DNA from: Patescibacteria group bacterium | GTDB taxonomy: Bacteria; Patescibacteriota; Minisyncoccia; Phycocordibacterales; UBA12088 | Assembly: GCA_015491145.1 (NCBI GenBank) | Contig: WFWM01000068.1 | Location: 1-17,462, forward strand | Length of the DNA: 17,462 nt | Reading direction: 5' to 3' | In this document: one piece after another, positions 4,544 to 12,178 of the stretch | Layout of the letters: every line of letters begins with the position of its first letter | Numbering within the stretch: position 1 is the stretch's first letter | Translations under genes and position numbers: made by a program | The notes under the pieces: model-generated | Databases searched by the model: none | What the model saw: only the letters and a program-made list of their open reading frames with translations | What the model was told of the DNA's origin: nothing

Positions 4544-4635
4544 GGAGGGGTGGCTGAGTGGTTGAAGGCGCCCGCCTGGAGCGCGGGTAGGGGTGTTGCA
4601 GCCCCTCGAGGGTTCGAATCCCTCCCCCTCCGCCA
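4544..4635 (+). tRNA. tRNA-Ser (anticodon GGA)
   Basis: The acceptor stem GGAGGGG pairs with CCCCTCC at 4625-4631. The anticodon stem CCCGC/GCGGG encloses the loop CTGGAGC with anticodon GGA (4578-4580), which reads UCC and UCU. The long variable arm of class II tRNAs follows (about 4588-4607), then the T arm GAGGG-TTCGAAT-CCCTC (4608-4624). The discriminator is G at 4632, and CCA (4633-4635) is encoded, unlike in the tRNA-Arg of this window. Confidence 0.96.
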
Positions 4636-9181: not shown

Positions 9182-10912
9182 ATGTCTCATTTTCAAGAGC
9201 AGGACCAAGAGAAACGCCTCGAAACTGTCCGACGAAAGGAAGAGGAAGACCTCGCCCGCATCCTCTCGGAAAAGTATGGTGTTGGCTACGTCGACCTGAC
9301 TCGTCTCCCTATCGACACGGAAGCGCTCCGCCTCGTCCCTGAGGAAAGGGCACGGGAAGCGCTTGCCGTTCCCTTTAAGGTGGCCCGCCGAAAGGTGTGG
9401 CTCGCAGTCCATTCCCCCGGAAATCTGAAAACGAAGGAACTCATCGATACCCTCGAACGGCAGGGGTTTCAGGTGCTCGTCTTTATGGCTTCCCGCCACA
9501 GCCTCGAGCATGCTTGGGAACGCTACAAAGACCTCTCGCTCGCCATCGCCACGAGTGCCGGCATTATCGATGTGTCGCAAGAGGAGATTGCCGAGCTGCA
9601 GGCGCAGCTCACCTCGCTCGAATCGATCCAAGCCACCATCCGCGAGGTGGTGCAATCACGGCAGACGCTCCGCATCTCCCGACTCCTTGAGGTAATCCTC
9701 GCCGGTGCCCTCGCTTTGAAGGCGTCCGACATCCACATTGAGCCGGAGGAGGAAGTGGTGCGTATTCGTTTCCGCCTCGACGGGGTGCTCACCCCCGTGG
9801 CAACCCTTCCCCACAGTTTGAGCAAGTCGCTCATCACGCGCCTCAAGCTCGTTTCCGGAATGAAACTCAACATCACCAACGCTGCGCAGGACGGGAGGTT
9901 CACCATTCGAATTGAAGAGAGAGAAATCGAGGTTCGCGCCTCTGCCGTCCCGGGCAACTACGGAGAATCGATCGTGATGCGTATTCTCGATCCAAACTCG
10001 CTCCGCATTCCCCTAGAACGACTCGGAATGCATCCTGTGCTCCTCGAGCGAATGGAGGCGGAAATTCTCCGACCAAACGGAATGATCCTCAACACCGGCC
10101 CTACCGGATCAGGAAAGACGACGACTCTCTATGCCATTCTCTCGCGCATCAAGCGGCCGGAAATCAAAATCATCACCATCGAGGATCCCATCGAGTACCA
10201 CCTTGAGGGAATCGTGCAGACACAAATTGACCACAAGAAGTACACCTTTGCCCAAGCGCTCCGAGCAGCGCTCCGGCAGGATCCCGATGTCATTATGGTC
10301 GGGGAGATCCGTGACCCTGAGGTGGCAGACACCGCCGTGCAGGCAGCGCTCACCGGCCACCTCGTGCTCTCTACCCTCCACACGAACACCGCTGCCGGCG
10401 CCTTCCCCCGCCTCATCGGCCTCAAGGTGAACCCGCAGGTCATCGGTTCGGCGGTGAATGTGGTAATGGCGCAGCGGCTCGTTCGGGTGCTCCGGCCGGA
10501 ATGCCGCATCGAGATCCCACTCACGGGACCGGTGCGCGACTTTGTGCTGCGGGTTGTCGATTCCCTTCCCCCGCATCCGGCGTACCAGCCGAAGCAAACG
10601 GAGGTGCACTACCTCCCCAAGCCAGGCGGCAGCTGCGTCACCGGCTTTCAGGGGCGCATCGCGGTATTCGAAACCATCTTTATGGATGAGGAAATAGAGG
10701 CACTCGTCACACGGGGAGCGAGCGAGCGCGACATCCAACAGGCAGCGCGGAAACAGGGGTTCCTCGATATGGTGCAGGATGGCGTCCTCAAGGTGCTCAA
10801 CGGCACCACCTCTCTCTCGGAGCTCGCCCGCGTCGTTGAGATAGATCCAGCCGTCGCCGCTGCGCTCGCGCAGCACGAGCAGCACCTCACTGAGCACGCA
10901 ACCTCTGAATAA
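9182..10912 (+). CDS. pilB: Type IV pilus assembly ATPase PilB (GspE/PilB family)
   Basis: 576 residues. The N-terminal GspE/PilB domain (about 20-115) contains YGVGYVDLTRLPIDTEALRL. The ATPase core has LKASDIHIEPEEEVVRIRFRLDG (179-201), Walker A GPTGSGKTT (306-314), Asp box ITIEDPIEY (331-339), Walker B DPDVIMVGEIRDPE (367-380) and His box GHLVLSTLHTN (392-402). It powers pilin polymerisation on the cytoplasmic face. The zinc-binding four-cysteine motif of most PilB/GspE proteins is reduced to Cys441 and Cys485, the latter in GSCVTGFQGR, whose usual form is CxxCxxTGYxGR. The gene reads away from tsaE and is unlinked to pilMNO. It ends facing the candidate minus-strand RNA. Confidence 0.95.
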   Translation: MSHFQEQDQEKRLETVRRKEEEDLARILSEKYGVGYVDLTRLPIDTEALRLVPEERAREALAVPFKVARRKVWLAVHSPGNLKTKELIDTLERQGFQVLVFMASRHSLEHAWERYKDLSLAIATSAGIIDVSQEEIAELQAQLTSLESIQATIREVVQSRQTLRISRLLEVILAGALALKASDIHIEPEEEVVRIRFRLDGVLTPVATLPHSLSKSLITRLKLVSGMKLNITNAAQDGRFTIRIEEREIEVRASAVPGNYGESIVMRILDPNSLRIPLERLGMHPVLLERMEAEILRPNGMILNTGPTGSGKTTTLYAILSRIKRPEIKIITIEDPIEYHLEGIVQTQIDHKKYTFAQALRAALRQDPDVIMVGEIRDPEVADTAVQAALTGHLVLSTLHTNTAAGAFPRLIGLKVNPQVIGSAVNVVMAQRLVRVLRPECRIEIPLTGPVRDFVLRVVDSLPPHPAYQPKQTEVHYLPKPGGSCVTGFQGRIAVFETIFMDEEIEALVTRGASERDIQQAARKQGFLDMVQDGVLKVLNGTTSLSELARVVEIDPAVAAALAQHEQHLTEHATSE

Positions 10913-10922
10913 ACAGTAGGGG

Positions 10923-10940
10923 AAACAAAAACCCCTCCAC
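10923..10940 (-). terminator. Terminator-like end of the candidate minus-strand RNA
   Basis: On the minus strand the 3' arm GTGGAGGG of the long closing stem (10933-10940) is followed by G and then UUUUUGUUU (10931-10923). A long G+C-rich helix followed directly by a U-tract is the form of an intrinsic terminator. On the plus strand there is no U-tract, only a 5-bp hairpin AGGGG/CCCCT, so pilB gains no clear terminator from it. Confidence 0.55.
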
Positions 10941-11107
10941 CCCCTTACCCTTCGGACGACTTGCTTGAGAGCAAGGAAAGGCGACCTGCCTTCCTGAGGA
11001 GTTGCCCAGTCTCTCCGCACTCGGCGGCAACCAGGCAGTCCTTGCGAAGGAGGCCTCTTACGCCATGCGCGGCGTTGCCGTCCGAAGGGTAAGAATGTGG
11101 AGGGCGC
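10923..11107 (-). ncRNA. Candidate structured non-coding RNA, about 185 nt
   Basis: The 250-base gap between pilB and ruvB has no credible reading frame but a very strong fold. Bases 10944-10958 are the exact reverse complement of 11079-11093 (15 bp). Outside them 10933-10940 pairs with 11097-11104 (8 bp); between and inside these, bases 10942, 10943 and 10959 form G-U pairs only if the minus strand is transcribed. The closing helix then has about 27 pairs with one mismatch and ends in a U-tract. Inside are ACGCC/GGCGT (11060-11075), TCCTT/AAGGA (about 11039-11051), CTGCCT/AGGCAG enclosing GTTGCC/GGCAAC (about 10986-11038), and CTTGCT/AGCAAG (about 10960-10975). I do not recognise tmRNA, RNase P or SRP RNA signatures. 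Length and long closing stem recall 6S RNA, but the multibranched interior does not. Unassigned. Confidence 0.6.
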
Positions 11108-11113
11108 CCTGCT

Positions 11114-11124
11114 GTGGTAGCATA
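11114..11124. promoter_or_regulatory. Divergent promoter element of ruvB and the candidate RNA
   Basis: On the plus strand TGGTAGCAT (11115-11123), within CTGTGGTAGCATACG, would start a transcript near 11130, giving ruvB a leader of about 41 nt. On the minus strand the same bases read GTATGCTACCAC; either TATGCT (11119-11124) or TACCAC (11114-11119) could serve as -10, starting the RNA near 11112 or 11107. The 12-mer CGTATGCTACCA is shared with the tsaE/pilB promoter. A further GGTAGCAT abuts the ruvB ATG at 11163-11170 but would start transcription after the ATG. Confidence 0.45.
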
Positions 11125-11170
11125 CGCTTGCCACTGCAAGGCGTGGTGTGTCCTGCTGCAACGGTAGCAT

Positions 11171-12178
11171 ATGAACCAAGCACCGTCAACCCCTTCCGAG
11201 CCTCATCTCGACCGGGCTCTCCGCCCCACCTCGTGGGACGAGTACATAGGGCAGGAAGTTGTGAAGCAGAATGTTCGCATCCTCATTGAGGCAGCCCGCA
11301 GCCGACAGCAACCTCCGGAACACCTCCTCTTCTACGGCCCGCCGGGACTCGGGAAGACGACGCTCGCCCACCTCATTGCCCGTGAGCTCGGGGCTGCAAT
11401 CCGTATCACCTCCGGCCCGGCAATTGAGCGCGTCGGCGATCTCGCTGCCATCCTCTCCAATCTCGAGGAGGGGGATATCCTCTTCATCGATGAGATCCAC
11501 CGCCTCCCGCGCGCTGTGGAAGAGGTGCTCTACCCCGCGCTCGAGTCGGGCACGCTCGACCTCATCATCGGCAAGGGACCGTCTGCACGCACGGTGCAAC
11601 TTCCCCTCCCCCCTTTTACCCTCATTGCCGCAACGACCCGCTACGCCGGGCTCTCTGCCCCGCTGCGATCTCGATTCTCCGGAGGGGTGCACCGGCTCGA
11701 CTTCTACACAGAGGATGAAATTGTCCGTATCCTCGAGCGATCAGCGAAACTCCTCTCGATGGAAGTATCACACGGGACACTCCGCCTCATCGCCCAACGC
11801 GCACGGGGCACGCCGCGCACTGCCAATTTTCTCCTCAAACGCGTGCGCGACTTCGCACAGGTGCACCAACGCCCGTGCGATGAGGAGACCGCCTCTGAAG
11901 CGCTCACACTTCTTGGTATTGATTCCGCAGGCCTCACCGCGGAGGATCGGGCGCTCCTGCTTGCTCTCATTGACCGCTTCCAAGGCGGGCCAGTTGGGCT
12001 TGCAACGCTCGCTGCGTCACTTGGAGAAGAGGAGGACACGATTGCCTCTGTCCATGAACCCTACCTCCTGCAGCTCGGATTCCTCGAGCGGACGCCGCGC
12101 GGGAGGCGCGCCACCCGCCTCGCCTACGAGCATCTCCGTCGCACGCCGCCATCGCAACCACCGCTCACTGCACTCTAA
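11171..12178 (+). CDS. ruvB: Holliday junction branch-migration helicase RuvB
   Basis: 335 residues, family-normal length. [19 protein letters not shown] at the start, Walker [14 protein letters not shown] (54-66), Walker [11 protein letters not shown] (103-112), [12 protein letters not shown] (129-140), sensor 1 AATTR (153-157) and PLRSRF (164-169) with the arginine finger region. The C-terminal winged helix carries [20 protein letters not shown] and [15 protein letters not shown], both typical. RuvB hexamers drive branch migration of RuvA-bound junctions. ruvA is not in the window. One oddity is [13 protein letters not shown] where most RuvB proteins have DRFGxxxRLEFY. No Shine-Dalgarno sequence is seen before the ATG. 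Confidence 0.97.

Follow-up and report, generated by a model that had tools for sequence, protein, structure and literature searches.

A probable new class of structured RNA between pilB and ruvB in one order of Paceibacteria

The pilB–ruvB gap and the fold of its minus strand

The window, i.e., the whole stretch of DNA that was analysed (17,462 nucleotides), carries pilB and ruvB on the plus strand, and the gap between them holds an element that we assign to the minus strand (Table 1). Within this gap lies a 26-nt inverted repeat (10933-10958 / 11079-11104), whose arms are 88% complementary and are separated by 120 nt. The 15 exact complementary bases, 120 nt apart, that had been noticed in the sequence-only reading of this DNA are contained in this repeat. 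A mobile or repeated element was considered and rejected: a second copy was absent from the genome, and the other matches were the repeat's own two arms (26 bases) and matches of 14-21 bases.

Table 1. Features of the window. The start of the RNA gene was placed approximately 7 nt after the -10 box and its end in the U-tract.
Feature	Position	Strand	Basis or remark
tRNA gene (RF00005)	93-164	minus	Rfam scan
tRNA gene (RF00005)	4544-4632	plus	Rfam scan
pilB	9182-10912	plus	convergent with the RNA
Putative RNA gene, both ends inferred	10923-11154	minus	promoter and U-tract positions; R1 match at 10942-11095
U-tract UUUUUGUUU, terminator-like	10923-10931	minus	directly after P1
P1 outer helix, 3' strand	10933-10940	minus	folding
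P1 inner helix, 3' strand	10942-10960	minus	folding
P4 hairpin, 5 bp, abutting the P1 3' strand	10961-10974	minus	folding; P4 covaries in relatives
P3, long irregular arm with conserved core	10978-11059	minus	folding; comparison of relatives
P2 hairpin, 5 bp, after P1	11060-11075	minus	folding
P1 inner helix, 5' strand	11077-11095	minus	folding; 19 bp with 10942-10960; P1 covaries in relatives; A-U changed to G-U in the other genome of the genus
P1 outer helix, 5' strand	11097-11104	minus	folding; 8 bp with 10933-10940
Promoter-like TATGCTACCACAG, possible second start	11112-11124	minus	part of a 16-nt repeat
-10 box TACCGT of upstream RNA promoter	11161-11166	minus	17-nt spacer to TTGACG
ruvB	11171-12178	plus	divergent from the RNA
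-35 box TTGACG of upstream RNA promoter, just inside ruvB	11184-11189	minus	pattern common to 48/52 loci

Upon folding, the minus strand of region 10900-11120 reached -111.9 kcal/mol, versus -81.7 ± 5.0 kcal/mol in 200 shuffled sequences (z-score of -6.07), and none of the 200 folded as well. The plus strand of the same region gave a z-score of -6.13; it also folds well, so energy alone cannot settle the strand, which is settled by comparison with relatives. The predicted architecture of the minus-strand RNA is a four-way junction of helices P1 to P4, with a near-invariant motif in P3. The outer and inner parts of P1 give 8 + 19 = 27 pairs, i.e., the closing helix with an 8-bp outer arm that had been proposed from the sequence, and the fold has three inner arms in addition. 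The U-tract described after the helix also lies where it had been placed, at 10931-10923 of the minus strand, directly following P1. In constrained folding of 50 relatives, P2 had at least 4 bp in 46 and the lower P3 pairs were present in 49.

Covariation, strand and distribution

Only one other genome of the same genus was found. Its element is 80% identical to that of the window and lies between the same genes; 3 of 63 pairs have changed on both sides with pairing kept, and one A-U pair has become G-U, which is a pair on the minus strand only. In other genera, a diverged version was found upstream of ruvB. We built a covariance model (R1) from 16 relatives, with the window excluded. Among these 16 sequences, double changes were present in 21 of the 39 pairs, and 90.9% of the cells paired, versus 82.2% in shuffled alignments and at most 48.0% with slid structures; none of the 500 shuffles reached any of the five measures. 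When 50 sequences were fitted to the model, double changes appeared in 31 of the 39 pairs (193 cells) with 93.6% of the cells paired, and the 34 sequences from outside the model gave double changes in 31/39 pairs with 94.6% paired (1244 of 1315 cells); alignments fitted to the model, including A7, lean towards its structure, and the compensations are nonetheless present in the letters. Within the window's own family, the P1 sequences were quite different and their pairing was retained. The element therefore has a conserved secondary structure.

The core of P3 reads AGGAC..CUGG / CUGG..UCCU and includes tandem U.G/G.U pairs and an internal loop; the apical loop of P3 is variable among relatives. 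The two sides of the internal loop (C / UA), located between AGGA/UCCU and the tandem wobbles, were 94% and 88% conserved, and the wobbles were found as U.G in 45/50 and as G.U in 45/50 sequences. On the other strand, these conserved pairs would be A.C mismatches, which places the RNA on the minus strand. The claim that the G-U pairs fit only this strand is borne out by the P3 wobbles and by the pair that became G-U in the other genome of the genus. Fold z-score, covariation and strand evidence agree with the structured minus-strand RNA that the sequence-only reading had proposed at 10923-11107. As a check, that reading had suggested comparing the pilB–ruvB gap of related genomes and examining covariation; the helices covary, and the element is kept across the order.

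R1 matched the window at 10942-11095 of the minus strand with 34.8 bits (E 5.8e-7), a modest score that falls within the 23-46 bits obtained for true members on their antisense strand; the plus strand of the window gave no match at E 10. Most of the relatives used for training have a lower GC content, and the GC-rich genus of the window obtains weak R1 scores. In the window's order, R1 matched 239 of 297 genomes (E 0.01), of which at least 11 had supplied model sequences; the genomes in this search ranged from 0.4 to 1.4 Mb. The window's genome was not among the 239, as it was missed under stricter filters. Divergence and strict filters explain some of the 58 genomes that had no R1 match at E 0.01, not necessarily all of them; the RNA is present in the window's genome and in several others of its family that were missed in this search. 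Five ruvB loci of this family (L120, L122, L124, L128 and L130) escaped R1 at E 0.01 and were identified through the P3 core, four of them by their folds and L124 by sequence only.

In an even draw from the phylum, R1 matched 15 of 379 genomes (E 1e-4), 13 from the same order and two from other orders of the class, and the window's genome was missed again. Since R1 misses known members, a missing match is not the same as absence, and 15/379 is a lower bound. R1 also found nothing at E 0.01 in a further 24 ruvB loci, most of which belong to more distant lineages (L088, one of the 24, came without upstream sequence); this is not proof of absence, because the five true members recognised by P3 likewise have no R1 match. 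In five weak members (L041, L042, L058, L214 and L215; E 2e-9 to 6e-4), the RNA is likewise upstream of ruvB and on the other strand from it. The carriers are very small uncultured bacteria of the Parcubacteria, and those with names include Kaiserbacteria (L028), Zambryskibacteria (L033) and Nomurabacteria (L036). We take the host class to be Paceibacteria (L029 and L038 are labelled Paceibacterota).

Comparison with known RNA families

The Rfam 15 scan of the window revealed two tRNAs only, and at E 10 the region 10880-11180 gave one chance-level match (E 4.9). Scans of the relatives revealed no family match, and the sub-threshold matches were to unrelated families (E 3-9). The sequence-only reading had judged that tmRNA, RNase P RNA and SRP RNA do not fit and had pointed to Rfam as a check; none of the three matched in the window, and no family matched the RNA. 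Like the pilB–ruvB RNA, tmRNA and RNase P RNA are conserved stand-alone structured RNAs, and both were identified elsewhere in most relatives. Specifically, tmRNA (RF00023) was over the cut-off in 34 of 39 genomes, with the window's genome giving sub-threshold matches only (the best of 76 nt), and RNase P RNA (RF00010) was found in 37 of 39 genomes at E 0.01, 15 of them over the cut-off. In the window's genome, RNase P RNA lies on another contig (C3:7849-8231), below the cut-off. Both were rejected as identities of the element. OLE, GOLLD, ROOL and raiA are large orphan bacterial RNA classes with no function or a late-assigned one; they resemble the pilB–ruvB RNA in being supported by covariation and, compared through the Rfam 15 scan only, gave no match.

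SRP RNA shares with the pilB–ruvB RNA ends that are paired in a long helix and a wide distribution in the lineage. A conserved GNRA-capped helix 8 is a feature of SRP RNA; the pilB–ruvB RNA, by contrast, gave no match and has no conserved helix of this type, as its P3 apical loop is variable. SRP RNA (RF00169) was found in none of 39 genomes (G000-G038) or in the window, and the Ffh M domain (PF02978) in none of the same 39, while the controls were positive in 11/14 and 14/14 genomes, respectively. This agrees with the SRP loss published for Parcubacteria (PMC4508563). The loss would leave room for the pilB–ruvB RNA to have replaced SRP RNA; we consider this highly improbable, as the protein partner Ffh was also not found and the apical loop of P3 varies.

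A divergent 6S RNA of this lineage was one identity offered tentatively by the sequence-only reading; such an RNA would act as an open-promoter mimic that binds RNA polymerase. 6S RNA (RF00013) resembles the pilB–ruvB RNA in its size class, its own promoter and its long closing stem with a 3' hairpin. RF00013 found nothing over the cut-off in 61 relatives and was found in only 5 of 14 control genomes, so a 6S RNA could have been hidden from this model. Two of the 61 relatives matched RF00013 below the cut-off (E 0.004), and we take their RNAs to fold with the 6S layout (closing stem, 5' bubble, GGGAGC..GGGCACCC terminal stem and 3' hairpin). A model made from these two RNAs matched 61 of 148 genomes of the order at E 0.1, of which 53 also carry the pilB–ruvB RNA. 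An improved model (R3) identified the 6S-like RNA in 32 of 40 relatives, with a best E < 0.001 in each; seven of the 32 genomes supplied R3 sequences, and 31 of the 32 also carry the pilB–ruvB RNA, the exception being G010. In the window's genome, the 6S-like RNA is located at G000:C38:7523-7657 of the plus strand (= L221:1524-1658) with an E of 8.5e-7. R3 gave no match to the window at E 10, and RF00013 gave none at the gathering cut-off and none within 10880-11180 at E 10. The pilB–ruvB RNA is therefore separate from an RNA of 6S layout that is present in the same genomes, the window's included, and the 6S identity did not survive this comparison. The two RNAs also differ in architecture: 6S RNA has an open bubble, whereas folding predictions place P2 and the lower P3 pairs in the four-way junction of the pilB–ruvB RNA, which would leave no open central bubble. 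Together, these results make a divergent 6S RNA very unlikely.

The 6S-like RNA of the order was also observed at L137, L138 and L171-L200, with a conserved 5' bubble and the same terminal stem; it falls below the cut-off of the Rfam 6S model.

The other alternative left by the sequence-only reading, a new RNA class, gained support from covariation and order-wide conservation. Among the entries of the PMC full-text listings, none reported a class of structured RNA in Patescibacteria, and the main text of two RNA-discovery papers (PMC8632094 and PMC11109978) contains no mention of ruvB, Patescibacteria, Parcubacteria, candidate phyla, Saccharimonas or OD1. The novelty lies in an RNA class outside every family tested, while the kind of gene, a promoter-driven small RNA, is familiar. 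The superphylum Patescibacteria has been put at a third of microbial diversity (PMC9868632).

Promoter, gene neighbourhood and proposed role

Of 52 loci, 48 (the window included) have the pattern TTGA(C/A)N-N16-18-TAnnnT on the RNA strand in the 150 nt upstream of the RNA, versus one locus for the opposite strand and 2.4 expected in shuffled sequences. This bias again identifies the RNA strand. In the window, TTGACG-17-TACCGT is a weak promoter match and was also unreported by a stricter consensus scan, which found no promoter on either strand of the region. At the other end, a U-rich tail followed P1 in 32 of 52 loci, versus 26% of random stretches. Given the promoter, the U-tract and the strand-specific conservation, we infer that the RNA is transcribed, with the start and end positions listed in Table 1.

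P1 with the U-tract resembles a terminator, and the element could be read as a mere transcription terminator or a chance inverted repeat. A terminator, however, would account neither for the covariation of P3 and P4 and the near-invariant nucleotides of P3 nor for the promoter in 48/52 loci, and a chance repeat would not be expected to recur in 239/297 genomes. We regard both readings as extremely improbable.

As for the neighbouring genes, ruvB is on the strand opposite the RNA in 51/51 loci and a pilB homologue in 49/51. Among the 51 loci, 18 were fetched by the RNA alone and the others mostly by ruvB, and 30 came from the order-wide R1 search; ruvB was opposite in 18/18 of those fetched by the RNA alone. 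In one set of relatives, all 28 with ruvB carry the RNA upstream of this gene and on the other strand; of these 28, 23 were identified by R1 at E 0.01 (11 being model sequences) and five by the P3 core. The downstream open frame, by mechanical gene calls, was convergent with the RNA in all 50 testable loci of the 52, which gives a third indication of the RNA strand. A cis-regulatory leader or riboswitch was rejected, as the downstream gene was never co-directional in the 50 testable loci.

The main rival is control of ruvB in cis, by the RNA or by the firing of its promoter, as an antisense leader or through promoter interference. In the window, the -35 box is located 13 nt past the start codon of ruvB. 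Of the 48 loci with the promoter, 32 have a -35 box that overlaps an ATG/GTG/TTG codon in the frame of ruvB at the start of this gene, mostly as ATGTCAA. Such an arrangement, the constantly divergent ruvB and pilB–ruvB read-through, which would presumably be antisense to the RNA, are all in keeping with a cis role. A cis role, however, does not call for a four-way junction, a conserved P3 core or strand-specific wobbles, and vertical inheritance of pilB, the RNA and ruvB as a block would also give the constant position. We consider cis control unlikely, although it may coexist with another role.

The presence of a candidate promoter of its own in 48/52 loci and of a covarying structure is what marks a stand-alone gene at the level of sequence. 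We therefore consider it likely that the element is a non-coding RNA gene that stands alone and represents a new RNA class, distributed in one order of Paceibacteria and found more weakly in a few genomes of other orders of the class. The small genomes, the SRP not found in close relatives and the retention of the RNA in 239/297 genomes suggest that it has a useful job. In this reading, leftward transcription would be driven by a sigma70-type promoter located at the start of ruvB, or by the promoter-like element approximately 40 nt downstream of it; the RNA of approximately 185-232 nt is closed by the 27-pair P1 and arranged as the four-way junction of P1, P2, P3 and P4; and P1 and the following U-tract would terminate transcription. 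The most likely mechanism, which we put forward tentatively and at somewhat below an even chance, is that the RNA acts in trans as an RNA–protein particle, with the conserved P3 motif as the putative protein site. More speculatively, and with the odds leaning against it, the RNA could serve all of the class Paceibacteria as a housekeeping RNA that has gone unrecognised and lies outside the RNA families catalogued so far; it would form the core of a lineage-specific RNA–protein particle and have stayed next to ruvB while the lineage gave up SRP. The model, strand, promoter and P3 motif render the RNA directly testable.

Four of the 52 loci lack the promoter pattern, and the copy in the other genome of the window's genus (L109) is one of these four; the TATGCTA element pointed out in the sequence-only reading is kept in both the window and L109; the RNA may therefore start from either promoter in this genus. 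The promoter-like GTATGCTACCA of that reading stood in part: it is present within TATGCTACCACAG at 11124-11112 and is kept in L109, but no -35 box lies 16-18 nt upstream of it. We also observed a 16-nt sequence in two copies (11109-11124 and 11156-11171) that are 81% alike at a spacing of 47 and contain the TATGCTAC element, possibly reflecting a tandem promoter duplication.
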